Shown piece by piece: positions 23,415-35,693 of a DNA stretch of 64,000 bases. The notes under the pieces are model-generated. The model did no database searches. It was not told the origin of the DNA and saw only the letters and a program-made list of their open reading frames with translations. The stretch is taken from the NCBI GenBank assembly GCA_016125165.1, contig WGMH01000001.1, positions 248,001 to 312,000 of the forward strand. The letters are read 5' to 3'. The number at the start of each line of letters is the position of its first letter. The stretch's first letter is position 1. A program made the translations under genes and the position numbers. The DNA is from Alphaproteobacteria bacterium. GTDB lineage: Bacteria; Pseudomonadota; Alphaproteobacteria; Micropepsales; Micropepsaceae.

Positions 23415-26225
23415 TTACGCGAGGGCTTCGTCCAACGCCCGCTGGAATGCGGCAAGCCCTTGATCAATATAGGTAAAGTGAAGGCGCAGCACGCGCCGCC
23501 CGCGTTCCTGCAGCACTCCGAAATCCCCCATCGCCTGCGCCAGTTCGATTTGTCCGAAGGACAGCTTGTTGCCGGGGATAGGCACATCCACCACCGGATC
23601 GCCGGTGAGCATAATGAAAAGACCCGTATCCGGTCCGCCCTTGAAGGCCTGTCCGGTCGAATGCTGGAAGCGCGGACCAAAACCCACAGAGGTTGCGAAG
23701 GCTGTCCTGTCGCGCACCAGCACGCGCAGGGAATCCAGGAGTGCCTCGTGTTCCGCCGAGCGCTGCAGAAATGCGAGCAGCGCCACATAGTCACCCGCCT
23801 TGCCGCGCGCCAGATGCACTTTCAGCGCTTCGGCGAGAGATGAGACCTTTGGCAATTTCGGATCGGCGTAGAGCGCGATGCCATTTTCTTCCAGCAGCGG
23901 CTTCTCGCTCTTTACCTTGCCGAGTTCAGCGGCCTGCTTGGCAAATTCGCGCGCCTTGATTTTCGCAGCTTCCACGTCCGGCTGATCAAACGGGTTGACG
24001 CCGAGTACAGCGCCCGCCACGGCAACAGCGAATTCCCACAGATAGAAAAGCTGGCCAAGCTGATAGGAATCTTCGATATCAATGCGGATCACCGAATGAC
24101 CCGCTTCGCGCAATTCGACAAGCTGCTCGCCGCCATCGGCGCTGCCCGCCAGATGCACATACACGAACACGCGATCCTTGCCGTAATTCTCCGGCGAGCC
24201 CAGTGCCTCATGGTCCACGGGGATCAACCCCTTGCCATGCTTTCCCGTGGATTCGGCGATCAATTGCTCAAGCCAGGACCCAACACTGTCCATTTCCGGT
24301 GAGCAATGAATGGTGATCTTGTCGCGGCCGCATTCTTTCGCAAGCACGCCGAGTGTCACGCCCAATTGCACACCGGGATTGACGGCGGGCGGCACCACAG
24401 CATCGCAAGCCTGCATCATCTGTATCGCTTCATCGAGAATGCGGCGTGCATCGAGGCCAGAAGCCGCCATCGGAACAAGGCCGAAGCGCGACAGCACAGA
24501 GTAGCGGCCGCCGATCTGCGGATCGCCAAGGAAGATGTGACCATACCCACGGTCACGTGCTTCCTTTTCCATTGCCGAAACCGGATCGGTAATGGCCACG
24601 AAGTGCCGCGCCGCATCGGGCGGGCTCATTTTCTGTGTCAGGCGGTTGAAGAAGTAATTCTTGAACAGATTGGGCTCAAGCGTGCTTCCGGATTTCGAAC
24701 TGACGATGAATAGCGTGCGCATCAGGTCGATATGCGATTCCATTGCGCGCAATTCAGCGGGATCGGTGGAATCGAGCGCGCAGAATTGCGGCCAGCCTTC
24801 GCGATGCCCAAGACATTTGGACAGCACTTCCGCGCCAAGGCTGGAGCCGCCCATGCCCATCAGCAACACGTGGGTGAAGCCCTTCTTGTGCACGTCCTCG
24901 GCAAAGGCTTCGAGATCGTCCAGATCGTCCAGCTCGCGCCGGGCAATATCGAGCCAGCCAAGCCAGCCTGCTTCCTTGCCGCCGGTCCACAACGTGGCAT
25001 CGCGCGCCCAGATACGGCGCACATGTCCTTGCGCGGTCCAAGTGGCCATGGCGCGCGCCACCTTTTCGCGTTCGGAAGTGGCCAGCTTGAAGGTGAGACC
25101 TATGGGATCTCCGGCGGCCTTGATGCGCTTCTGCGCCAGTGCGCCATATAGCGCGTCCGCGCTGGCGGCGAATTTGGCGACGCCATCTTCGACGAGAAAA
25201 TCGGTGATCGCGTCCAGGTCTATGCCTGCGTCTTTCAGGTCGGCGAGAGCCGTCATCGCTTCCTTCAGCCCGTGTTCCAGCCGCGCTTCCGGTTTGCCGT
25301 GGTCGCGGTATGCGGCCAGCGTTTCCATGGGCAGCGTGTTCACGGTGTCTGGACCAATGAGTTCTTCGACGTAGATCACATCGGAATAGGATTTGTTCTT
25401 GGTGCTGGTGGAAGCCCAGAGCAGCCGCTGCGGGCGGGCGCCGCGCCTGGCAAGCACCTCCCAGCGCGGGCCAGAGAACACCTTCTTGTAGTGCGCATAG
25501 GCCAGCTTCGCGTTGGCAATCGCAACCTTGCCTTTGAGCGCCTCCAGCGGCGGCGCGAGCCCGCCCGGTGGATCTTTCAGCAGTTCATCCAGCTTTGCAT
25601 CCACGGCGGAATCGATGCGGCTGATGAAGAAGCTGGCGACGCTGGAGATGCGGGACAGGTCGGCTGTCTTCGGTCGCGCCTCAAGACCCTGGATGTAAGC
25701 CTCTGCCACCGCCTCATAAGCAGATTGCGCGAACAGCAATGTGACGTTGATGTTGATGCCATCACCGATCAATGCTGCGATTGCAGGCACGCCTTCTGGC
25801 GTTGCAGGCACTTTCACCATCAGGTTGGGGCGCGCAATCTTGGTCCAAAGATCGCGCGCTTCGGCGATCGTGCCCTCGGTGTCGCGCGCCAGATAGGGCG
25901 ATACTTCGATGCTGACATACCCATCCGCGCTATCGGTTGCGACATAGACATCCTTCAGCGCGTCCGCCGCGCTCTGGATATCGGCAATGGAGAGCTTTTC
26001 GAAGATTTCGCCGGTGCCAAGACCTGCCTCGGCCATCGCCGCGATGTCTTCGTCATATTCCGCGCCGCCGAGGGCCTTCTCGAAGATCGATGGGTTGGAG
26101 GTCATCCCCTTCACCCCGTCCTGCGCGATCATCTGGGCCAGCTTGCCGCCGGAAATGAAATCCCGCTTGAGATAATCGATCCAGACGGACTGGCCGAATG
26201 CCTCAAGCTGTTTGAGCGGATTCAT
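23415..26225 (-). CDS. tal-pgi: Bifunctional transaldolase / glucose-6-phosphate isomerase
   Basis: A 936-residue fusion of two central carbon enzymes. The first about 370 residues are a transaldolase: WIDYLKRDFISGG, KGMTSNPSIFEKA, and the Schiff-base Lys138 in NLMVKVPATPEG. The remainder is a glucose-6-phosphate isomerase of the SIS type, with LLMGMGGSSLGAEVLSK, VSSKSGSTLEPN and the C-terminal NPFDQPDVEAAK. Transaldolase moves a dihydroxyacetone unit between sugar phosphates, and the isomerase links glucose-6-P and fructose-6-P, so the fusion joins the pentose phosphate route with upper sugar metabolism. This fusion is known from other bacteria. The ATG lies 12 bases after the nitronate-monooxygenase-like gene. 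Confidence 0.95.
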   Translation of the reverse strand: MNPLKQLEAFGQSVWIDYLKRDFISGGKLAQMIAQDGVKGMTSNPSIFEKALGGAEYDEDIAAMAEAGLGTGEIFEKLSIADIQSAADALKDVYVATDSADGYVSIEVSPYLARDTEGTIAEARDLWTKIARPNLMVKVPATPEGVPAIAALIGDGININVTLLFAQSAYEAVAEAYIQGLEARPKTADLSRISSVASFFISRIDSAVDAKLDELLKDPPGGLAPPLEALKGKVAIANAKLAYAHYKKVFSGPRWEVLARRGARPQRLLWASTSTKNKSYSDVIYVEELIGPDTVNTLPMETLAAYRDHGKPEARLEHGLKEAMTALADLKDAGIDLDAITDFLVEDGVAKFAASADALYGALAQKRIKAAGDPIGLTFKLATSEREKVARAMATWTAQGHVRRIWARDATLWTGGKEAGWLGWLDIARRELDDLDDLEAFAEDVHKKGFTHVLLMGMGGSSLGAEVLSKCLGHREGWPQFCALDSTDPAELRAMESHIDLMRTLFIVSSKSGSTLEPNLFKNYFFNRLTQKMSPPDAARHFVAITDPVSAMEKEARDRGYGHIFLGDPQIGGRYSVLSRFGLVPMAASGLDARRILDEAIQMMQACDAVVPPAVNPGVQLGVTLGVLAKECGRDKITIHCSPEMDSVGSWLEQLIAESTGKHGKGLIPVDHEALGSPENYGKDRVFVYVHLAGSADGGEQLVELREAGHSVIRIDIEDSYQLGQLFYLWEFAVAVAGAVLGVNPFDQPDVEAAKIKAREFAKQAAELGKVKSEKPLLEENGIALYADPKLPKVSSLAEALKVHLARGKAGDYVALLAFLQRSAEHEALLDSLRVLVRDRTAFATSVGFGPRFQHSTGQAFKGGPDTGLFIMLTGDPVVDVPIPGNKLSFGQIELAQAMGDFGVLQERGRRVLRLHFTYIDQGLAAFQRALDEALA

Positions 26226-26237
26226 GAATGCCTCTGG

Positions 26238-27176
26238 TTACGCGTATGTCTTGGCCAGCGCGGAAATGGTCTTGCCGAATTCCTCGACCGTTTCGGCGAT
26301 CACCTGGGCGACCGGCTTGATCGTGTCGATGCGCCCGGCAACCTGTCCCGATAGCGCAATTGATGCCTCCATGTCGCCACCGAAATACAGATCCATCGCA
26401 CGGCCAAATTCGGCCATCACGTTTTCGTGTGGTTCCTTCTCGAATTTCGTGGTTTTCTCGGTACGCAACGCGCGCAGCGCCGGTCCCGGTCCGAAACGGT
26501 TCAGAAAAACCGTGTCGGTTTCCTGCGCCTGGAGGATCGCATTCTTCCAATTCGCGTGAACCGGAGATTCGGCCGCGGAAACCATACGGGTTCCCATCTG
26601 GATGGCTTCGGCGCCCAGCGCGAAGGCCGCCGCCATCGTCCGGCCATCCACCATGCCACCCGCCGCGACCACCGGCAGGTTTATCCTTTCGCAGATCAGC
26701 GGCAACAGAACCATGGTGGCGACATCGCGCGGATTTTTGAACCCGCCGCCTTCGCCCCCTTCCACCACCAGCCCATCCACGCCCGCTTCCACCGCGCGCT
26801 GTGCCGCTTTCAGCGAGGGCACAACATGAAACACAGTGAGCCCCGCGTCCTTCAATGGACTCACGATTTTCATGGGATCGCCAGCCGATGTGGTCACAAA
26901 CTTGACGCCCTGATCGATGATGAACTGAACAATGGAAGGATCGCGCACGAAGGCCAGCGCCACGTTCACGCCGAACGGTTTATCGGTCAGCGTCCGCATC
27001 TTCTTGATTTCTTCGCGGATGGCGTCGAGCTGTCCTGAAGAGGTTTCAATGATGCCCATGCCGCCGGCATTGGAGACGGCGCTTGCCAGCTGCGAGCGTG
27101 CAATCCAGCCCATCGGCGCCTGCACGATGGGATATTGAACGCCCAGCATGCGGGTGATGCGATTGTCGAATTTCAT
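26238..27176 (-). CDS. Nitronate monooxygenase / FMN-dependent enoyl-reductase-like protein
   Basis: A 312-residue FMN TIM-barrel protein of the 2-nitropropane dioxygenase/FabK family. It shows the N-terminal PIVQAPMGWIARSQLASAVS and SNAGGMGII, the central GLVVEGGEGGGF phosphate site and PVVAAGGMVDGRTMAAAFALGA with MGTRMVSAAES. The segment GGEGGG differs from the AGGHxG of proven nitronate monooxygenases, where the His is the base. The oxidation of nitronates is therefore uncertain, and a different flavin-dependent reduction is possible. It lies upstream of and close to the tal-pgi gene, probably in one transcript. Confidence 0.85.
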   Translation of the reverse strand: MKFDNRITRMLGVQYPIVQAPMGWIARSQLASAVSNAGGMGIIETSSGQLDAIREEIKKMRTLTDKPFGVNVALAFVRDPSIVQFIIDQGVKFVTTSAGDPMKIVSPLKDAGLTVFHVVPSLKAAQRAVEAGVDGLVVEGGEGGGFKNPRDVATMVLLPLICERINLPVVAAGGMVDGRTMAAAFALGAEAIQMGTRMVSAAESPVHANWKNAILQAQETDTVFLNRFGPGPALRALRTEKTTKFEKEPHENVMAEFGRAMDLYFGGDMEASIALSGQVAGRIDTIKPVAQVIAETVEEFGKTISALAKTYA

Positions 27177-27232
27177 GGTGTTCCCGGATGCGGAATTTCA
27201 GCGGGGCGGAGACTACCTCCCCCGCCCGCCTG

Positions 27233-27871
27233 CTACCAGCGCAGAAACCGTGATCCGGCCAGCGCCCCCAGCAGCGCCATGACGCCAATTCCGATCGTGT
27301 ACCAGACAAGAACAAAGAGCGGTGAATCGTCGTTGCAATGCGCGGCATAGAACGCCGCCCCGATGCCGCCACCGACGAGCCCCGCCACGGCACCCGCCCG
27401 CCAGGGATTGGTGGGCGCGCCGCTGCGAAGCGCCCACAGCACCAGCGCCACCGGCACAACCGACAGCATTGGAATATAGCGCATGCAGATCATGGAATTG
27501 TTGCCTATGGCGCGCGGCATCCAGAGATCGGCAGGAACCGCGATCAGTTCCGCGATGACGGCCGCCATCAGAAGCCCCGGCGCAAGCCACAATAGCAGCG
27601 TTTCACCGGGCTTTAGCGGCTGCGGCTCGGCAAGGCGCACGGCTACCGCCAGCGCCGAGAAGGCGAGCGTGAGCGTATAAACGAATTTGAAATCGAAACG
27701 CACCGTCCGCATCGCTGTCATGATGTCGTCACGCGGGCCCACCATCGCGAAGAACAGCGCGGCGGCAGCCACAAGCGCACCGATGGCGGCAATCATCAGC
27801 ATCCGTCCCGGCGGCGGGCCGGGCGGGGTCTGATCTGCAGCCAGCGAATTGATGAGATCATTTGTGTTCAT
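27233..27871 (-). CDS. nrsF: NrsF-type (DUF1109) membrane anti-sigma factor
   Basis: A 212-residue inner-membrane protein with about six helices. This is the layout of the DUF1109/NrsF family, which in Caulobacter holds the ECF sigma factor SigF inactive until heavy-metal stress. Two cysteines fit the family: Cys129 in NNSMICMRYIPMLSVVP and Cys179 in YAAHCNDDSPLF, presumed to sense metal or oxidation at the periplasmic face. The N-terminus MNTNDLINSLAAD is the soluble part expected to bind the sigma factor. The ATG overlaps the sigma-factor stop (ATGA), so the pair is made together. The role here is inferred from the family and the adjacent bufferin operon. Confidence 0.88.
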   Translation of the reverse strand: MNTNDLINSLAADQTPPGPPPGRMLMIAAIGALVAAAALFFAMVGPRDDIMTAMRTVRFDFKFVYTLTLAFSALAVAVRLAEPQPLKPGETLLLWLAPGLLMAAVIAELIAVPADLWMPRAIGNNSMICMRYIPMLSVVPVALVLWALRSGAPTNPWRAGAVAGLVGGGIGAAFYAAHCNDDSPLFVLVWYTIGIGVMALLGALAGSRFLRW

Positions 27872-28464
27872 GGCGATTGCTCCGCCATATCGTCGTCGCG
27901 ATAGAGTTTTGCCAGGCGCTTGAGGCCGCGATGCAAGGCCACACGCACCGCGCCTTCGCTGATCATCAGCCTCGCGGCGGTGTCGCGGATGCTCTTTCCG
28001 TCGAGAGAAATGGACTGCACCACATCCTGTTCGCGCCCTTCCAGCCGCATGACGATACGTGAAAGTTCGGATGCGCTTTTTTCGGGCTGCGGTGTGGCGT
28101 CAGGCAGAATTTCAATAAGATCGTCGATGGGTGTCTCCGCGCGGCGGCCACGGCGGCGCATGGCGTCGATCAGCTTGTGGCGCGCGATGGCATTCGCCCA
28201 CGGTGCGAATGGCTGATCGCGCATCCATGTGCCCCGCTTCAGGTGAATGGCCAACAAGATCTCCTGCACCACATCCTCAACATCGGCATTGCCGAGCCCG
28301 GCCCGCGCCAATCCTCCGCGCGCCATGGTTCTCAGCATCGGCGTGAGGTCTTCCAGCAGCGTGCGGTAGGCAGCGGCATCGCCATCCAGTCCCGCGAGCA
28401 TCAGCCCGGTCCAGCGTGTCTCACGCGCCCGCGCATCTCCAATGCTCTGCTTCGGATGGGACAT
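27868..28464 (-). CDS. sigF: ECF RNA polymerase sigma factor (SigF-type)
   Basis: A 198-residue ECF sigma factor with region 2 (NADVEDVVQEILLAIHLKR and FAPWANAIARHKLIDAMRRR) and region 4 (EGREQDVVQSISLDGKSIRD then LMISEGAVRVALHRGLKRL). It should direct transcription of metal-stress genes once NrsF lets go. The first ATG is at 28464; ATG22 (28401) would cut the conserved RETRW start of region 2, so the longer form is preferred. A second sigma-F-like promoter match on the minus strand lies across the start codon, which leaves the exact start slightly uncertain. The gene is divergent from the DUF2282-DUF692-DUF2063-DoxX operon. Confidence 0.9.
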   Translation of the reverse strand: MSHPKQSIGDARARETRWTGLMLAGLDGDAAAYRTLLEDLTPMLRTMARGGLARAGLGNADVEDVVQEILLAIHLKRGTWMRDQPFAPWANAIARHKLIDAMRRRGRRAETPIDDLIEILPDATPQPEKSASELSRIVMRLEGREQDVVQSISLDGKSIRDTAARLMISEGAVRVALHRGLKRLAKLYRDDDMAEQSP

Positions 28465-28476
28465 GGAATTCGTTAC
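28451..28476 (-). promoter_or_regulatory. Second sigma-F-like promoter match, overlapping the sigF start
   Basis: On the minus strand GTAACG (28471-28476) and CGAA (28451-28454) are 16 bp apart, the same spacing as the match in front of the precursor gene. A transcript from here would start inside the annotated sigF gene, so either sigF begins later or this match is chance. It is reported because the two matches are back to back. Confidence 0.3.
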
Positions 28477-28523
28477 GTGACCAACGGGCCGGGTGGCCCC
28501 GGCAAAAAAATCTCACGCCATGC

Positions 28524-28549
28524 GTAACACGTCAGAGCCCGAAGGCGAA
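28524..28549 (+). promoter_or_regulatory. Probable sigma-F promoter of the bufferin operon
   Basis: GTAACA at 28524-28529 and CGAA at 28546-28549 are separated by 16 bp. As I recall it, the Caulobacter SigF consensus is GTAACC-N16-CGAA, so five of six bases match in the -35 and all four in the -10, with exact spacing. The start point would lie near 28556, leaving a leader of about 50 bases with AAGGAAA as Shine-Dalgarno sequence before the precursor ATG. Confidence 0.7.
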
Positions 28550-28604
28550 GGCATCCCTGAGCGAGCCCGGCTGGCGGGCCGCTGAACTTTAAGGAAATAT
28601 CATC

Positions 28605-28901
28605 ATGAACCGCACATCGTCTCTCGCGCTCGCCGGCTCCGTGGCCGCCGCCATTGCCCTTCTTTCCGGCGCCGCGAACGCAGCCGACATGAACTCCATG
28701 GGCGAAATGGAGAAGTGCTACGGCGTCTCCCTGAAGGGCCACAATGACTGCAAGGCTGCCTATCCCGGCGCGACCTGCGCGGGCAGCCAGAAGATCGATT
28801 ACGACGGCCAGTCCTTCAAGGAAGTTCCGAAGGGCACCTGCACCGCGATGAAGACACCGCATGGCATGGGTTCGCTGACGCCGTTCACCAACAAGATGTA
28901 A
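28605..28901 (+). CDS. bufA: Bufferin-type RiPP metallophore precursor (DUF2282, BufA1-like)
   Basis: A 98-residue secreted precursor. A Sec signal peptide (residues 1-26, ending SGAANA) is followed by the DUF2282 core with four cysteines: Cys38 (MEKCYGVS), Cys49 (GHNDCKA), Cys58 (ATCAGS) and Cys79 (PKGTCTA). In the described bufferins the two central cysteines are turned into thiooxazole rings and the outer two form a disulfide, giving a copper-binding periplasmic peptide. The spacing here fits that scheme. The tail has Met82, His86, Met88 and Met98, possible extra soft-metal ligands. AAGGAAA precedes the ATG, and a sigma-F-like promoter lies about 55-80 bases upstream. Modification is inferred from the family and the DUF692/DUF2063 genes downstream. 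Confidence 0.88.
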
Positions 28902-28910
28902 CGGCTGAAG

Positions 28911-28959
28911 GCCGGCTGGCATGCCCTTGCCCCCCAGCGGCATGCCAGCCGGCATTTTT
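28911..28959 (+). terminator. Perfect 15-bp hairpin with T-run between precursor and maturase genes
   Basis: GCCGGCTGGCATGCC (28911-28925) is exactly complementary to 28939-28953, with a 13-base loop, and is followed by ATTTTT. It begins nine bases after the precursor stop. It has every feature of an intrinsic terminator or a partial one. Its likely effect is that the precursor message is made in excess over the maturation genes, or that the short precursor transcript is stabilised. Confidence 0.75.
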
Positions 28960-28980
28960 CTTCACATGCAGGCCATCCCG

Positions 28981-29835
28981 ATGACCGCAACACACATGCT
29001 GCCACCCGGCGCGGGCGCTTCGTTCAAGCCCGCGCATTTTCGCACCATCGCGGAACAGGCGCAGCCTGTGGCATTCTTCGAAGTGCATGCGGAAAACTAC
29101 ATGGGCGCGGGCGGCCCGCCGCACGCGATGCTGTCCAAACTGCGCGCAGATTATGCGCTCTCGATTCACGGGGTCGGCCTTTCGCTTGGCGGCGAAGAGG
29201 CGCTGAACACCGGCCACCTGGAGAAGCTGCGCATTCTTTGCGAACGCTATGAGCCGCAGAGCTTTTCGGAGCATCTTGCCTGGTCAAGCCATGGCGGGGA
29301 ATTCCTGAACGATCTTCTGCCGCTGCCCTATACCGGCAAAACGCTCGCGCGCCTCTGCGATCATATCGACCAGACGCAGGCGCATTTGCAGCGGCGCATG
29401 CTGCTCGAAAATCCATCGACCTACGTGGTGTTCGAAGAAAGCACCTGGGATGAAGCCGAATTCCTCGCCGAGATTGCGCGACGCACAGGCTGTGGCCTCC
29501 TGCTCGACATCAACAACGTCTATGTCTCGGCGATCAATCACCGCTTCGATCCGCGCGCCTACCTGAACCGCTTTGCGCTCGCCGCCGTTGGTGAAATCCA
29601 TCTGGCCGGTCACACCGCACTCACGGATCAGAACGGCAACCCCTACCTCATCGATACGCATGGCGGTCCGGTGATCGAACAGGTCTGGGCGCTCTATGCC
29701 GAGACCATCGCCTGCGCAGGCGCCCTTCCCGCCCTGATCGAATGGGACAATGACCTTCCCGAATGGCCCGCACTTCTAAGCGAAGTGAGGAACGTGGACG
29801 CGATCCTGTCCGCGCACGCAATAAAGGCGGCCTGA
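28981..29835 (+). CDS. bufB: DUF692 iron-dependent RiPP maturation enzyme (BufB/MbnB-like)
   Basis: A 284-residue TIM-barrel DUF692 protein, the multinuclear iron enzyme family that converts precursor cysteines to oxazolone or thiooxazole groups. Conserved metal-site segments are all present: [65 protein letters not shown] and IEWDNDLP. Earlier ATGs at 28921 and 28942 lie inside the terminator-like hairpin. ATG 28981 has AGG eight bases upstream and gives the normal family length, so I prefer it (28966 is an alternative). One base separates its stop from the bufC ATG. The substrate is presumed to be the DUF2282 peptide just upstream. Confidence 0.9.
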
Positions 29836-29836
29836 G

Positions 29837-30541
29837 ATGCAGCATGCCTTCGCCGCGGCGCTCACCTTAAAGACGGATGCGCCGTGCGGCGTTTCGCCGG
29901 CGCGCTTCGGCATCTATCGCAACAACCGGCTTTCCGCGCTCATTGACGCGCTCTCTGCCGGATTTCCGGCCACCGAGCGTATCGTGGGCGAGGCGTTCTT
30001 CCGCGCGATGGCGCGCGAATTTGTCGCCGCCCATCCACCGTGCTCGCCGGTGCTGATGGAGTATGGCGCGGACCTTCCCGCTTTCATCGCGCGGTTCGCG
30101 CCGCTCGCGGAGCTTGCCTATCTCGCCGATGTGGCGCGGCTGGAGCTGGCGCATACGCGCGCCTATCACGCCGCCGATGCGCCAACGCTCGGCCCCGATG
30201 CGCTCATGCAGATTGCAGACACTTCACGCCTCGCAATCCATCCTTCGGTATCGCTTATCGCCTCTCCCTACCCCATCGCTACCATCTGGACGATGAATAC
30301 CAGCGGAGAGCCTGCGCCCATCGAAGATTGGCACGGCGAAAGCGTGCTCGTTCTGCGCACCAACATGGCCGTGCATATACACACCCTGGATACTGGCGCA
30401 GTCATATTCCTCGAGCAGCTTCAGCAGGGCGTAACATTGGCCGGTGCCGCAGCGAAAGCCTTGCACGACGCACAAGACTGCGCGCTCGGCCCCTTTCTGG
30501 CGTTTGCGTTTTCGAATGGCGTCTTCACGCAAATCCTTTGA
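29837..30541 (+). CDS. bufC: DUF2063 partner protein of the DUF692 enzyme (BufC-like)
   Basis: A 234-residue protein. Its N-terminal half (FGIYRNNRLSALIDALSAG, then FPATERIVGEAFFRAMAREF) is the DUF2063 putative DNA-binding-like fold that in RiPP systems recognises the precursor and delivers it to the DUF692 enzyme. The C-terminal half is a separate domain that probably binds peptide. It starts one base after the bufB stop (TGAGATG), a sign of coupled synthesis of two complex partners. The name putative DNA-binding domain used in older annotation should not be taken as evidence for gene regulation here. Confidence 0.87.
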   Translation: MQHAFAAALTLKTDAPCGVSPARFGIYRNNRLSALIDALSAGFPATERIVGEAFFRAMAREFVAAHPPCSPVLMEYGADLPAFIARFAPLAELAYLADVARLELAHTRAYHAADAPTLGPDALMQIADTSRLAIHPSVSLIASPYPIATIWTMNTSGEPAPIEDWHGESVLVLRTNMAVHIHTLDTGAVIFLEQLQQGVTLAGAAAKALHDAQDCALGPFLAFAFSNGVFTQIL

Positions 30542-30552
30542 GGGGACTTCCC

Positions 30553-31032
30553 ATGAACGCCGTCATCGCGCTTGCCACGCGCGCCATCGCCTTGCTCAAC
30601 CGCATTCCCGAAAGCGCGCTGTTGCTTGCCGCGCGAATCTTTCCCGCCGCCGTCTTCTGGCAATCGGGCGAAACCAAGCTCGATGAAGGCACCTGGCATG
30701 TCAGCGACAGCGCCATCTACCTCTTCCGCCATGAATACAATCTGCCGCTGATCGATCCGGCGATTGCGGCGCATGCGGCCGCCTTTGCCGAGCACTTCTT
30801 TCCAATTCTGCTGGTGCTGGGCCTCGCCAGCCGTTTCGCCGCATCAGCGCTTTTGACCATGACGCTGGTGATCGAGGTTTTCGTCTATCCCGATGCCTGG
30901 CCGACGCATGGCGTATGGGCCACTTGCTTTCTCTTCGTAATCGCGCGCGGTGCGGGCACCCTTTCAATGGATCACCTGTTCTCCCGGCGTTTCGGCTTCT
31001 TCAAGCTGGCACCCGCAGCGAAGGCGGATTAG
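30553..31032 (+). CDS. DoxX family membrane protein
   Basis: A 159-residue inner-membrane protein with about four helices and the DoxX pattern LLLAARIFPAAVFWQSGETKL, plus FAEHFFPILLVLGLASRFAA. DoxX proteins commonly close the DUF2282-DUF692-DUF2063 operons and may supply redox or quinone chemistry for maturation, but the role is not established. The Shine-Dalgarno sequence GAGGGG overlaps the bufC stop, so it is in the same operon. Only the part from 30553 is real; the frame is open for over 500 bases further upstream through bufC in another phase. Its 3' end overlaps the convergent glycosyltransferase gene by 32 bases. Confidence 0.87.
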   Translation: MNAVIALATRAIALLNRIPESALLLAARIFPAAVFWQSGETKLDEGTWHVSDSAIYLFRHEYNLPLIDPAIAAHAAAFAEHFFPILLVLGLASRFAASALLTMTLVIEVFVYPDAWPTHGVWATCFLFVIARGAGTLSMDHLFSRRFGFFKLAPAAKAD

Positions 31033-32059
31033 CGATTCCGTCCGCGATATCGGTGGGCCAGGCATAGGATTGCCTTGGCCCACCTTCAAACGTCGCATCC
31101 AGAATCCACTGGGCGACCTTTGCTTCGTTGAAATCGGCGTGAACGCGCGCCCAGCCCCGCCTTGCCACATCGCGGCGCGCGTGGTCATTCCCGCGATAAT
31201 AGTGCAGCTTGGCGATCAGCTCTTCCGGATCGGCATAGGAGACCAGCTCATCCTCCGCGAACAGATCGCCAAAGCCTGTGGCGCGATGAATAAAGGTCAG
31301 CAACCCGCATCCCATCAATTGCGCCATGCGGTCGGAGGAATAGAGATAGACATTGTCCCGCGCGCTGAGACTGAGGCCCATGCGGGCACTCCCCAGCGCA
31401 TCGAAGAATTCCGCGCCATAGGCACCGGGCCTTCCCCAGAAGCCGCGCGCGTCGAATTTCAATTCAGGTATGCCATCGCGGATGGCCTCACAAAGCGCCA
31501 ATCGCGGGCCGTTGTATTTCTTGTTCCCGCACAAAAAGACGAGATCATTTGGCACGTCATTGCGCTCGAAAACCTTGAGAGATTCGACCGCCTTGTCCAC
31601 CGGGTTCGGCATATAGGCGACACGGCCGCCGAACCCGGCGATCTGATGCAGATAGTTGCCCGCCGTGGTCATCAGTGTCATGTCCACAAGCGGCGCAAGG
31701 CGTGCCAGACGCATGAAATTTCTGGGCACAAACAACCCATCCACATTCCAGTGCGCGATGCGCACCGAAGGCACGGCCTCGCGCAATTGGGCAATCGTCT
31801 CCGGGGCAATCACACAGCAGTGACCGAGCAGAATGAGATCAGGCCGCAGTTCACGGCAGAAGCGGACAAGCTGCCGATTGGCCAGCGGGGCACCCAGTTT
31901 TCGCGCGCCGAGAAAATAGCCATCGGCAACATCGCGATCCGCGAAATTTGCACCGAAATGACCGAGACGTGTCAGTCCGGATGTAAGCTTGAACGGCACG
32001 CCGAACACGAACGCGCCGTTCTTCGATACCGGAAAATTGGAAACATGCACGATCTTCAT
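31001..32059 (-). CDS. Glycosyltransferase, CgeB-like (GT-B fold)
   Basis: A 352-residue protein with an N-terminal Rossmann-like start (MKIVHVSNFPVSKNGAFVFG) and a C-terminal nucleotide-sugar-binding half. The latter contains LSLSARDNVYLYSSDRMAQL, then MGCGLLTFIHRATGFGDLF, as in CgeB/Glyco_trans_1_2 proteins where a Glu/Asp-rich loop grips the sugar nucleotide. It probably transfers a sugar during surface-glycan synthesis, but the acceptor is unknown. Its ATG overlaps by ATGA the stop of a short frameshifted remnant upstream, which suggests it was once part of a longer operon. No other glycan genes are next to it. Confidence 0.65.
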   Translation of the reverse strand: MKIVHVSNFPVSKNGAFVFGVPFKLTSGLTRLGHFGANFADRDVADGYFLGARKLGAPLANRQLVRFCRELRPDLILLGHCCVIAPETIAQLREAVPSVRIAHWNVDGLFVPRNFMRLARLAPLVDMTLMTTAGNYLHQIAGFGGRVAYMPNPVDKAVESLKVFERNDVPNDLVFLCGNKKYNGPRLALCEAIRDGIPELKFDARGFWGRPGAYGAEFFDALGSARMGLSLSARDNVYLYSSDRMAQLMGCGLLTFIHRATGFGDLFAEDELVSYADPEELIAKLHYYRGNDHARRDVARRGWARVHADFNEAKVAQWILDATFEGGPRQSYAWPTDIADGIANPPSLRVPA

Positions 32060-32225: not shown

Positions 32226-32900
32226 TTATCTGTTTCGGCGGTGGCGGCGTGACTGTTCAGGTGGTGCATCCGCGATCCGGGCATCCAGCGCCGGAACGGT
32301 GGCAAGCGTCCAGCTTACGGCTTCGTTCGCGGCATCGCCTGCGGCCTGCGAAAAGGCATCTGTCACCGCGACCAGCGTATTTGCTTTTGCCTGTACGGTC
32401 TTGGTGATGGTACGCGTGCCAAGCACGGTGCGCTCAGGCACCACGACAAGGCGCATGGACAGCTTCACCACAACGCGCGGAGGCGTATCGCGCACGTCAT
32501 ATTGCGCTTCAAAGTCGCGCATTTCGCTTTGCAGGATGTAGTTGGCCTTGATCCCGGAATCTTCGCGCCCGACGGCCTTCACCGTGCCATCCGTTTCGAA
32601 GGCCTCCACCAGAAGCGATTGCACCATGGCGGGCGCGCGGTCGGTCCATTGCGCGTTGGCGTAATAGTCCTGCACGGATGGGCCCTGCAGCAGCGCAATG
32701 CGGTCGGTATCGAGGCTCTGTGGCGCCAGTGGCGAGGCCACGATCAACTGCCATGACACAGGCGCCGTGTGCTCAGCTGCTGCGACGAGGCCTGGGTTGA
32801 GCCGGTAGATGGTCCCGGCAGGCGGCGGCCCCACCACACCGGCGCAGGCGGTGAGCGAAAGCGCGAGGCCTAGGGCGAGTGCGGTTTTTTTGGGGGTCAT
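32226..32900 (-). CDS. ABC-type transport auxiliary lipoprotein (PqiC/DUF330-like)
   Basis: A 224-residue outer-membrane lipoprotein candidate. The signal peptide ends in the lipobox LSLTAC with the acylated Cys at residue 19. The rest matches the auxiliary component of MCE transporters, with YRLNPG near the start, then PLAPQSLDTDRIALLQGP and TRTITKTVQAKANTLVAVTDAF. It would receive or hand over phospholipid at the outer membrane. Its start overlaps the MlaD stop by four bases (ATGA), so it is the last gene of the four-gene transporter operon. The C-terminus is unusually basic (SRRHRRNR). Confidence 0.85.
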   Translation of the reverse strand: MTPKKTALALGLALSLTACAGVVGPPPAGTIYRLNPGLVAAAEHTAPVSWQLIVASPLAPQSLDTDRIALLQGPSVQDYYANAQWTDRAPAMVQSLLVEAFETDGTVKAVGREDSGIKANYILQSEMRDFEAQYDVRDTPPRVVVKLSMRLVVVPERTVLGTRTITKTVQAKANTLVAVTDAFSQAAGDAANEAVSWTLATVPALDARIADAPPEQSRRHRRNR

Positions 32901-33745
32901 TGCGGTGTGTATCCCTGGCGGCGGTCGCCGAAGAGGAGCTTGGTGGGCTGGCGGTCGAGTTCGTTGGATAGCCGTTTGAGGCTGGTCACCAGTGTGCGGG
33001 TTTCGGTCACGAGCTGGTCGATCTGCACCACCGTATCGCCACTCAACACCTCGTCTGCATGTCTTGCCACCTGATCGGTGTGGCGCAAGACGGTGTCGAG
33101 CGTGGAAAGGTTCCGGTTGAGCGCTTCGGAGGCAAGACCGAGATTGGTGATGGTCACATCGATCTCGTTGGAACGCTTGGCCAGCACATTGGTGGTGGTT
33201 TCCAGATTCGCCAGAATGGCGGAGAACGCCGCGCGATTTGCAGGCTTCAGGAGGTCGTTCATCTGATCGCCCACCTTGTTGAACTTGGCGATGAGCACCG
33301 GCGCGGATTCGGCCAATTGCTGCAGCGTGGAAGGCCGCGACTTGATGACGGGATAGTCATGCCCCTTGGGAACCGTAAGCAGCGGCTTCTTCTTGGAACC
33401 GCCTTCGATCTCCACATAGGAGCCGCCGGTGATGCCTTCACTCGCAATGGAGGCAATGGAATCCTCGTGCAGCGGCAGTGCCGGATCGATCTGCACGGTT
33501 ACGATCACGCGTTTGGGATCCTCGGGATCAAAGCGCAGCTTGTCGACGCGGCCGACTTCGATACCGTTGTATCGCACCTTCGTGCCTTTCGAGAGACCGC
33601 TCACAGAACCGGAGAAGTAGGTCTCGTAATATTTGTATTCCTCGCTGTACTGCGTGCCGGCCAGCCACAGAAGCGCGATCACCGTGGCCAGCATCAGCGA
33701 GAACACGAAGATGCCGACGGCTGCATAATTGGCTTTGGTTTCCAT
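32897..33745 (-). CDS. mlaD: MlaD/MCE-domain substrate-binding protein of lipid ABC transporter
   Basis: A 282-residue periplasmic protein with a single N-terminal membrane anchor (residues 9-30, GIFVFSLMLATVIALLWLAG) and one MCE domain (about 40-115: YFSGSVSGLSKGTKVRYNG, VGRVDKLRFDPEDP). A long helical tail (140-265) probably forms the central channel of a hexamer. It carries phospholipid between inner-membrane MlaEF and the outer membrane. It follows mlaF after 11 bases and overlaps the lipoprotein gene. The anchor and MCE motif make the call secure. Confidence 0.92.
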   Translation of the reverse strand: METKANYAAVGIFVFSLMLATVIALLWLAGTQYSEEYKYYETYFSGSVSGLSKGTKVRYNGIEVGRVDKLRFDPEDPKRVIVTVQIDPALPLHEDSIASIASEGITGGSYVEIEGGSKKKPLLTVPKGHDYPVIKSRPSTLQQLAESAPVLIAKFNKVGDQMNDLLKPANRAAFSAILANLETTTNVLAKRSNEIDVTITNLGLASEALNRNLSTLDTVLRHTDQVARHADEVLSGDTVVQIDQLVTETRTLVTSLKRLSNELDRQPTKLLFGDRRQGYTPQ

Positions 33746-33756
33746 CGCCTGTCTCC

Positions 33757-34533
33757 TCAGGTGTCGAGCGCGGCCCGGCCGCGAACGCCCGCGAAATATT
33801 CCTGTATCCAGGGATCTGGATCATGCCGCAGGGCATGGATCGTTCCCACCTTGATCTTCTTGTTCACCAGCACCGCGATGCGGTCTGTGGTGGCGCGAAG
33901 CGTATCGATATCGTGCGTGACCATGAACACGGTCAGGTTCAGGCTCTTTTGCAGATCGCGCACAAGCTCGTCGAAATGCGTGGCGGAAATGGGATCGAGG
34001 CCCGCCGTCGGTTCATCGAGGAACAGCAATTCCGGATCCATCGCCAGGGCGCGGGCAAGACCCGCACGTTTCTTCATGCCGCCCGAAAGTTCCGCCGGAT
34101 ATTTGGTGGCGGTGTCATCGGGCAGACCCACAAGCGCGATCTTCATTGCGGCGATTTCGTCCATCAGCGATTCCGACATAGCGGTATAGCGTCGTAAGGG
34201 CACCTGGATGTTCTGCGCCACGGTCATGGAGCTGAACAGGGCGCCTTCCTGAAACAGAACGCCCCAGCGCAATTGCAGCGATCGCATCGCGCGGGCGTCC
34301 ATGTCGCGTGTATTTTCGCCAAACACCCAGATGTCGCCTTCGCGCGGACGACTGAGACCAACGATGGAGCGCATCAGCACCGATTTGCCCGTACCCGATC
34401 CGCCGACGACGCCAAGCACTTCGCCGCGCTTCACGTCGAGGTCGAGATGATCGTGAATGACCTTGGTCCCGAATGCGTTCACCAGCCCGCGAATGCGGAT
34501 GGCCACGTCATCGGGCGGTGCCGCATCTGCCAT
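33757..34533 (-). CDS. mlaF: MlaF-type ABC transporter ATP-binding protein
   Basis: A 258-residue ATPase that powers the lipid transporter at the cytoplasmic face. Walker A is GGSGTGKS, the signature is LSGGMKKRAGLARAL, Walker B is LLFLDEPTAGLDP and the switch His is in MVTHDID. The ATG shares its first base with the mlaE stop (TGATG), which fixes the start at 34533; the 15 extra residues of the open frame lie inside mlaE. It matches MlaF in length and in the C-terminal extension typical of this subgroup. Confidence 0.93.
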   Translation of the reverse strand: MADAAPPDDVAIRIRGLVNAFGTKVIHDHLDLDVKRGEVLGVVGGSGTGKSVLMRSIVGLSRPREGDIWVFGENTRDMDARAMRSLQLRWGVLFQEGALFSSMTVAQNIQVPLRRYTAMSESLMDEIAAMKIALVGLPDDTATKYPAELSGGMKKRAGLARALAMDPELLFLDEPTAGLDPISATHFDELVRDLQKSLNLTVFMVTHDIDTLRATTDRIAVLVNKKIKVGTIHALRHDPDPWIQEYFAGVRGRAALDT

Positions 34534-35693
34534 CACACTTCCAGCACCGAAAAAAGTATGGAGAAGGCTGCATCGCAAACGATGACGAGGAAGATGGATT
34601 CCACCACCGAACGGGTCGTCAGCTTGCCCACGCTTTCGGCGTTGCGTTCCACACGCAGGCCTTCAAAGCAGCCCACCAGCCCGATCATGAAGGCGAACAC
34701 CGGCGCCTTCACAAGTCCCACCCACAGGGTCGAAAGCGATATTGCCCCTTCCAATTGGCGCATGAACACCGGGAAGGTGATGTTGAGATCGGCATAGCAC
34801 ATCAGCGCGCCGCCCAGCATCGCCATGACGTCGGCATAGAAGGTGAGCAATGGCAGCGCGATCATCAACCCCAGAACGCGCGGCACGACGAGCACTTCGG
34901 CCACGTTGAGGCCGATGGTCTGCATCGCGTCGATCTCCTCGTTCACCCGCATGGAGCCGATGGAGGCGGTGAAGGCGCTGCCGGAGCGGCCCGCCACGAT
35001 GATCGCGGTAATCAGCACGCCGATCTCGCGCAGAATGGAAACGCCCAGAAGATTGATGGTGAATATCTCGGCGCCGAAGCGGCGAAGCTGGTCCGCGCCC
35101 TGATAGGCGATCACCACGCCCAGCAGAAAGGACAGCAACCCCAGAATGGGAAGCGCGGTCAGACCCGTTGCCTCGATCTGAGTCACCAAAGCCGGAAACG
35201 GCAATTCACGGCGCGGCGCAAAAACCGCTTCGAACGTTTCCACCGTTATCTGGCCAAGAAAACTCAAGAGCGCATAGCCCTGCTTGAGCACATCGACGGT
35301 GCCTTTGCCGATGCGCACGAAGAAATCGGTGAAGCCGCCCGATCTTGGATGCGGATGGGGTTGGCACACATCCGCATTGTTGATGGTTTCAATCAGCGGC
35401 TTGTAAACCGTGGGCACGCTCAGATGGCGCACATGACGGCCCGCTGCTTCCAGATCGCGATGCGTGCGCAAAAGAAGCCATGCACCCGCGCTGTCCAGAA
35501 GCCCGATTTTCGAGCCATCGATTTCCGCTTCGCCGTCACCGCGAAGATCCAGCCGGCGCAATTCGGCGTCGAGGCGCGGCGCTTCGCCGATCACCCAATC
35601 GCCTGCCGCCACGATGCGCAAAAGCGCACCGTAGCGCTCGGTTGTGAGCGTCGCGGCGTCTTCCACCCGAAGATTGGGCGCAACATTTCTCAT
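34533..35693 (-). CDS. mlaE: MlaE-type permease with N-terminal STAS-like domain
   Basis: A 386-residue inner-membrane permease. The first about 110 residues are soluble and STAS-like (AEIDGSKIGLLDSAGAWLLL), a fused version of the separate MlaB protein of enterobacteria. The C-terminal 250 residues contain five to six helices with the MlaE core (VIAYQGADQLRRFGAEIF, LREIGVLITAIIVAGRSGSA, MRVNEEIDAMQTIG). It heads the transporter operon and starts 15 bases after the hutF stop on the same strand. No mlaC homologue is visible, so transfer across the periplasm presumably relies on MlaD and the lipoprotein. Confidence 0.93.
   Translation of the reverse strand: MRNVAPNLRVEDAATLTTERYGALLRIVAAGDWVIGEAPRLDAELRRLDLRGDGEAEIDGSKIGLLDSAGAWLLLRTHRDLEAAGRHVRHLSVPTVYKPLIETINNADVCQPHPHPRSGGFTDFFVRIGKGTVDVLKQGYALLSFLGQITVETFEAVFAPRRELPFPALVTQIEATGLTALPILGLLSFLLGVVIAYQGADQLRRFGAEIFTINLLGVSILREIGVLITAIIVAGRSGSAFTASIGSMRVNEEIDAMQTIGLNVAEVLVVPRVLGLMIALPLLTFYADVMAMLGGALMCYADLNITFPVFMRQLEGAISLSTLWVGLVKAPVFAFMIGLVGCFEGLRVERNAESVGKLTTRSVVESIFLVIVCDAAFSILFSVLEV

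Follow-up and report, generated by a model that had tools for sequence, protein, structure and literature searches.

A Buf1-type bufferin operon facing a SigF/NrsF switch, and a predicted regulon that adds methionine-sulfoxide reductases, in an alphaproteobacterium of the Micropepsaceae

Which genes are governed by the SigF/NrsF regulatory pair that lies back to back with a bufferin operon, and what does this switch sense? We addressed these questions for a 64,000-nucleotide stretch of DNA, hereafter the window, from an Alphaproteobacteria bacterium of the family Micropepsaceae (assembly GCA_016125165.1, contig WGMH01000001.1, positions 248,001 to 312,000). Here the genes for an extracytoplasmic function (ECF) sigma factor, SigF, and its NrsF-family membrane anti-sigma factor diverge from an operon encoding a bufferin precursor (BufA), its MNIO maturase (BufB), a partner protein (BufC) and a DoxX-family protein. 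The locus is a published Buf1 bufferin cluster with sigma and anti-sigma genes, an organization already in print for Caulobacter and Sinorhizobium meliloti; its genes are genuine and intact, and their kind is not unusual. To this, the present analysis contributes evidence at the DNA level that methionine-sulfoxide reductase (Msr) genes are probably under the same control, together with the absence of the operon from the corresponding place in sister genomes. Based on the genes, the promoter motifs and their conservation, a hairpin, the regulon sites and synteny, all computed here, we consider it likely that this Buf1-type operon has its own SigF/NrsF switch, which also raises expression of MsrP, MsrB and MsrA.

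SigF-type promoter sites point both ways between sigF and bufA. On the forward strand, GTAACA-N16-CGAA (28524–28549) is located 55 nucleotides (nt) before bufA, and on the reverse strand GTAACG-N16-CGAA (28451–28476) spans the annotated start of sigF (28464). A scan for the latter that was confined to 28465–28604 returned none; the second half of the element sits within the annotated gene, and a wider scan located it. Among 20,000 shuffles of the sequence from 28401 to 28604, any site arose in six and one on each strand in none. The position of the sigF promoter relative to the sigF start is the same in all five members of a clade comprising the window and its four nearest sister loci, and it is kept despite differing encoded N-terminal residues. 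A transcript made by SigF would start inside the annotated gene, and Met22 (28401, yielding a 177-residue protein) is therefore the likely start, with the annotated start probably placed too far upstream.

A larger collection of homologues exhibits the same spacing preference. The window and 52 further loci supplied 56 precursor genes; L025 yielded none, and of a merged tandem frame in L065 we counted the final core alone. Upstream of these genes, GTAACN and CGAA are separated by 16 nt in 18 cases, by 15 in three, by 14 in one and by 10 in one, with none at the remaining spacings from 11 to 23; a reversed-sequence control gave none at spacing 16 and a single case at both 18 and 23. An opposite-strand site at spacing 16 is present upstream of three of the 56. 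Likewise, a site precedes sigF in 27 of 76 NrsF loci, a biased sample of which 20 loci were chosen mainly for a low-scoring NrsF or a nearby precursor. No sigma-70-type promoter was found in 26900–31300, where 1.1 were expected. Between the bufA promoter and sigF, the reverse strand carries a terminator-like stem with seven consecutive T residues (28513–28527), one hit of a scan that is near chance as a whole.

To define the predicted regulon, the genome (3,038,209 bases in 14 contigs) was searched for exact GTAACN-N16-CGAA. The 20 sites recovered include those before sigF, bufA and the genes for MsrP, MsrB and MsrA, four on a contig designated C3, one in bufC, one before egtB and nine others. 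We weighed as meaningful the sites before sigF, bufA and the three Msr genes, and the four on C3 were given less weight. By our arithmetic, which uses approximately 10 sites per strand, the chance that any given gene has a site on the same strand within 150 nt upstream is about 5 in 10,000. The sites are located 34 nt upstream of the MsrP gene (contig C5; NF003767 at 418.5 bits, cut-off 207), 53 nt upstream of the MsrB gene (C7; TIGR00357, with a Tat-like signal by eye) and 101 nt upstream of the MsrA gene (C8; TIGR00401).

Two of these sites recur in related genomes. Among the best 30 MsrB loci, drawn from 122 genomes with a match, 14 carry the site at spacing 16, with none at spacings 12–15 or 17–20 and none in reversed or reverse-complement sequence. 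The MsrB site is shared by three genomes of the window's SigF clade (G033, G037 and G064), and G052 has a near match only. MsrA, MsrP and EgtB were compared across 21 chosen genomes. All three SigF-clade genomes that have the close MsrA orthologue (our own, G033 and, at spacing 15, G052) carry the site before it, and it is found at none of 14 other close orthologues and none of 13 more distant MsrA copies. These findings suggest that the SigF regulon probably combines the bufferin with methionine-sulfoxide repair by MsrP, MsrB and MsrA. The pairing of a bufferin with Msr enzymes is known through Caulobacter MsrPQ; MsrB and MsrA are the extension made here.

Several results weigh against this picture. 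The 20 sites in the genome compare with 30 in a control read backward, and a tighter form of the motif gives 14 sites versus 12. Because the genome total is below that of the control, single sites prove nothing and it is their positions that carry the argument. For approximately half of the 20, the genes that they fall within or precede show no evident link (nine of these frames were judged by eye), and one is inside bufC (window 30431–30456). MsrP was found at E ≤ 1e-40 in none of 20 congeners searched, which leaves its site without confirmation from sister genomes. The site 80 nt upstream of egtB (G000:C2:366966; EgtB scores 584 bits against TIGR03440, cut-off 360) is present at none of 16 congener orthologues and so may be due to chance. 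The motif is lacking at spacing 16 before 38 of the 56 precursors and before sigF in 49 of the 76 NrsF loci, and a second SigF encoded on contig C3 could own some of the sites. Moreover, NCBIfam models for NrsF, the precursor (BufA2), HvfC and HvfX were matched only below their cut-offs, and the names NrsF, precursor, BufC and DoxX consequently rest on Pfam and gene context. Finally, passages of the S. meliloti study report that the orthologous operon there is not induced by H2O2, cadmium or chromate (PMC6180224). As a separate observation on egtB, this gene follows sigF-nrsF-msrA in the congener loci L105, L106, L108 and L110 (TIGR03440 was checked for L105 and for our own genome).

Contig C3 (G000; loci L042 and L043; 30,475 bases) carries a second bufABC-doxX operon (C3:22089–24676) and a second sigF-nrsF pair (C3:26473–27772), whose NrsF has His at the position of the second sensor Cys. 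The contig also encodes MerA and two arsenosugar-type glycosyltransferases (all above cut-off), an ArsM-like arsenite methyltransferase-like gene (below cut-off), MerT-like genes and a phage-type integrase. Although C3 makes up 1% of the genome, it holds 4 of the 20 sites, which lie 59 nt before the second bufA, 38 nt before a TIGR04283 glycosyltransferase gene, 215 nt before a DUF6789 protein gene and 235 nt before a gene for a MerA-like flavoprotein. In two other genomes (G052:C60 and G020:C2), genes for a precursor, an NrsF and a TIGR04283 protein are found within 15 kb of one another.

All six gene products in the window pass their Pfam cut-offs. As the sequence-only reading had it, an ECF sigma gene overlaps that of an NrsF-type anti-sigma factor; we confirm this arrangement, in which sigF (27868–28464, reverse strand) and nrsF (27233–27871, reverse strand) share four bases. 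SigF is of the ECF16 type, with sigma regions 2 and 4 above the Pfam cut-off and 240.9 bits against NF009165 (cut-off 198), and NrsF (PF06532, E = 3.8e-57) has conserved residues Cys129 and Cys179. The divergent genes proposed in that reading are likewise all present on the forward strand: bufA (28605–28901; Buf1/DUF2282, PF10048, E = 5.4e-21), bufB (28921–29835; MNIO/DUF692, PF05114, E = 7.4e-103, and 378.1 bits against NF050167 MNIO_BufB, cut-off 310), bufC (29837–30541; DUF2063, PF09836, E = 1.6e-25) and, as fourth gene of the operon, doxX (30553–31032; PF07681, E = 6.5e-17). BufB aligns to the PDB chains 3bww, 8hci and 7dz9. The strict operon spacing that had been proposed is seen between bufB and bufC (1 nt) and between bufC and doxX (11 nt) and fails between bufA and bufB, where an inverted repeat with a T-run intervenes.

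This repeat (28911–28962, forward strand) is a 15-bp perfect stem with arms at 28911–28925 and 28939–28953, followed by ATTTTTCTT. The RNA fold of 28899–28972 has a minimum free energy of −39.4 kcal/mol (z = −4.41), and none of 200 shuffles was equally stable. A generic terminator scan of 26900–31300 found 5 candidates versus 3.4 expected, and because this is near expectation the hairpin claim is based on the fold and on the perfect stem. The ATG called mechanically for bufB (28921) falls within the repeat, and the real start therefore probably lies no earlier than 28966, where the next plausible ATG is found. The natural reading is that the hairpin would act as a partial terminator or as a stabilizer, so that output of the precursor exceeds that of the enzymes. 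In a scan run without a shuffle control, a repeat of the required length follows 34 of the 56 precursors and none follows 22. Several of these repeats fall inside the next gene and most others lack a T-run; in L003–L010, L015, L058 and L059, for example, repeats of differing sequence, mostly without a T-run, occur a few bases past the bufA stop.

The precursor itself conforms to the Buf1 pattern. A Sec-type signal peptide ending in ANA|AD was recognized by eye, and the cysteines are residues 38, 49, 58 and 79, as the sequence-only reading had numbered them. Four Cys are present in 56 of 56 precursors, the C1–C2 and C3–C4 spacings are invariant, and the C2–C3 gap is 6, 7 or 8 residues in 5, 38 and 13 precursors, respectively, with 8 in the window. 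Passages on the Buf1 family describe four conserved Cys, of which the central two are modified and the outer two joined in a disulphide, and report Buf1 clusters with sigma and NrsF genes (PMC12452194). Cys49 and Cys58 match the central pair and Cys38 and Cys79 the outer pair. The gene families and the four-Cys pattern support a Buf1-type bufferin operon under SigF/NrsF, from which, as proposed earlier, this organism may make a related peptide. Two variants were seen among the homologues. At G025:C244:37386–38224 (L065), three DUF2282 precursor matches are in tandem beside a single maturase gene, and in the second precursor, at L001:1022–1366, the signal peptide and the Cys core are separated by an insert rich in Met, Lys and Gln, with a similar insert in L055.

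Together with what is described for relatives, on which the thiooxazole chemistry, the copper binding and the sensing by NrsF are modeled, these features suggest how the locus may work. NrsF would keep SigF inactive at the inner membrane until the envelope comes under a thiol-reactive stress, from an oxidant or from a soft or redox-active metal (copper, for example), that acts on Cys129 and Cys179 and releases SigF. SigF would then transcribe its own gene and, from the divergent promoter 55 nt before bufA, the operon, with the hairpin providing precursor in excess over its enzymes. BufC would present the precursor to BufB, which may convert Cys49 and Cys58 to thiooxazoles; after export by Sec, closure of a Cys38–Cys79 disulphide would yield a peptide that buffers periplasmic copper. 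By also raising MsrP, MsrB and MsrA, SigF would combine copper chelation with the repair of oxidized methionine.

The closest described counterpart is the Caulobacter sigF-nrsF pair with the bufferin-1 operon CC3254–CC3257, which has the same genes in the same order (PMC3511200, PMC8224329, PMC12452194). According to passages of these papers, Caulobacter also shares the promoter (GTAACC-N16-CGAA there; PMC3511200), two NrsF cysteines (Cys131 and Cys181; PMC3511200), a second buf operon and an MsrP-type reductase in the regulon (MsrPQ; PMC8224329). Unlike Caulobacter as described in those passages, the window genome has sites before MsrB and MsrA as well, its sigF promoter overlaps the annotated start, and its second buf operon ends in doxX and lies with its own SigF/NrsF on a mercury/arsenic contig. 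In S. meliloti, rpoE7-ecfR7 with its ECF16 sigma factor faces a four-gene DUF692/DUF2063 operon (SMb20530–SMb20527) and GTAACA..CGAA promoters lie on both sides; the Msr link predicted here is absent from the passages covered, which give no inducer among the three agents named above (PMC6180224).

The two-Cys rule of this literature is not followed by all NrsF proteins. Both cysteines are present in 7 of 10 aligned NrsF sequences, and the second is missing in 3 of 10. These variants (L043:7107–7772, L055 and L070) have the first sensor Cys and His or Asp at the second position, and a different sensing chemistry is possible for them. Small Met-rich membrane proteins are encoded near variant NrsF genes in L134, L135, L136, L148 and L043 (9375–9809); the last, the C3 copy with a SigF-type site 215 nt upstream, is DUF6789 by Pfam, and the others were recognized by likeness.

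If the thiols of NrsF primarily sense reactive chlorine or other oxidants, then the bufferin would be one effector of methionine protection, which either limits copper-driven oxidation or is itself a redox-cycled Msr target. We regard this possibility as tentative. Three Msr genes of unrelated families belong to the predicted regulon, and the sites before them make an oxidant or a combined trigger as plausible as metal alone. Passages on Brucella describe an ECF16 system (bcrS-abcS/bcrXQP, cited there with an Azospira system) with an NrsF-family anti-sigma factor, cysteines C129 and C179, GTAACC..CGAA promoters and an Msr output: BcrS/AbcS responds to hypochlorous acid (HOCl) and, unlike the window locus, drives a Met-rich peptide with MsrQP (PMC8315932). 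The terms "bufferin", "DUF692" and "DUF2282" have no occurrences in the main text of that paper. In Haemophilus influenzae exposed to HOCl, the msrAB genes and a cluster of DoxX, COG3220 and DUF2063 genes are controlled by the oxidant-linked ECF sigma factor RpoE2. The anti-sigma factor there is a small 67-residue protein rather than an NrsF, and the cluster has COG3767 as its periplasmic protein, according to the passages covered (PMC7907618).

The outputs found beside NrsF also speak for an oxidant-first role. Among the 76 loci, a precursor is nearby in 21, a divergent secreted Met-rich, Cys-free peptide in 18 and MsrA in 7; a precursor and a divergent Met-rich peptide beside the same NrsF occur in none, a count that is descriptive only. 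The Met-rich class was defined by our own composition filter, of which another application marked different loci. Three points argue against an oxidant-first role. The mature BufA is less Met-rich than the peptides of congeners, the SigF clade of the window contains none of the 18 Met-rich loci, and in passages of PMC3511200 the Caulobacter targets rise with chromium and cadmium and by no more than twofold with H2O2, tert-butyl hydroperoxide, paraquat or diamide, agents that did not include HOCl. As to the Met-rich peptides themselves, they are 80–137 residues long and secreted-looking, 14 of 18 end in His and 7 of 18 have their own GTAACN-N16-CGAA; the loci include L104, L108, L109, L112, L115, L122–L125, L127, L129 and L131.

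The sequence-only reading had instead favored a plain metal-specific operon as in Caulobacter, in which Met82, His86, Met88 and Met98 (numbered correctly in the translation) could add soft-metal ligands in the C-terminal tail. Gene content and order are consistent with this proposal, as are passages reporting that copper induces the Caulobacter SigF regulon and that a sigF mutant is copper-sensitive (PMC8224329). The window tail also has four Met and His residues, a number exceeded in one of the 56 precursors and equalled in three. Across those precursors, however, the tail positions vary. Position 82 is exchangeable and mostly hydrophobic (I in 18, M in 16, L in 11, T in 8, V in 2 and Y in 1); of the 15 precursors whose tail reads TPxGxGSL, four have His at position 86, and position 88 is Met in the window alone and His in six; and a terminal Met is present in 3 of 56. 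A conserved ligand set in the tail was therefore rejected on this comparison, and with sites at three Msr genes also standing against a purely metal-specific role, we view that explanation as improbable. The regulon of bufferin and methionine-repair genes is the better-supported picture from these comparisons.

To examine the history of the locus, the SigF and NrsF sequences of 73 loci were joined and placed in a tree, where the window groups with L155, L161, L162 and L166 (support of 0.999 for the five, and 0.846 with L155), and no bufferin is present within the stretches fetched for these four. L161 and L162 both carry, in this order, genes for an ABC ATPase, an MlaD protein, a lipoprotein, SigF, NrsF, a PAS-like protein and a nitronate monooxygenase, which corresponds to the flanks of the window minus a glycosyltransferase and the buf genes. 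L166 matches, apart from a PAS-like gene that went unpicked and a nitronate monooxygenase gene that was picked in part, and L155 shares the lipoprotein side (Pfam matches of the flanks were checked for the window and L162). Because the next tree neighbors, L152 and L153, bear a bufferin, gain in the window and loss in the sisters both fit. Genus-wide, 47 of 69 genomes have an NrsF and 13 of 69 have DUF2282 precursors. A silent acquired cassette would account for the lack of a bufferin beside sigF in the four sisters and for a BufB that is nearer to congener G025 (66%) and to Rhodobacteraceae records (60–67%) than to the next congeners (56%), but intact frames, Cys motif, conserved enzyme segments, promoter motifs on both sides and hairpin make it very unlikely.

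In the window, the flanking genes are all on the reverse strand. A glycosyltransferase-like gene (31001–32059; PF13524), missing at the sister loci, is convergent with doxX. It is followed by genes for an ABC auxiliary lipoprotein, an MlaD protein and an ABC ATPase (32226–34578), which adjoin sigF in the sister loci. On the other side is a nitronate monooxygenase gene (26238–27176), also close to nrsF in the sisters. Further out, a single 936-residue frame (23415–26225) appears by eye to join a transaldolase to a glucose-6-phosphate isomerase.

The operon itself was to be expected from published work; of more use is the regulon, which can be tested and in which the same promoter sequence precedes the operon for a copper-chelating peptide and the genes for three unrelated methionine-sulfoxide reductases. 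Two of these three sites, at MsrB and MsrA, are conserved in sister species whose sigF has no such peptide gene beside it. Metal and oxidant both remain live as inducers, since the published passages differ: copper, chromium and cadmium in Caulobacter, none of the agents tried in S. meliloti and HOCl in Brucella. The regulon offers one route to learning if bufferins respond to metal, to oxidant or to damage common to both. It is conceivable, though we would not favor it at present, that one ECF16 switch of this lineage has exchangeable outputs, depending on the species either a sacrificial Met-rich periplasmic peptide or a copper-buffering bufferin, with Msr enzymes as the common partner. If so, bufferins would belong to the protection of envelope methionines and thiols as much as to metal resistance, and NrsF would read thiol oxidation rather than one particular metal.

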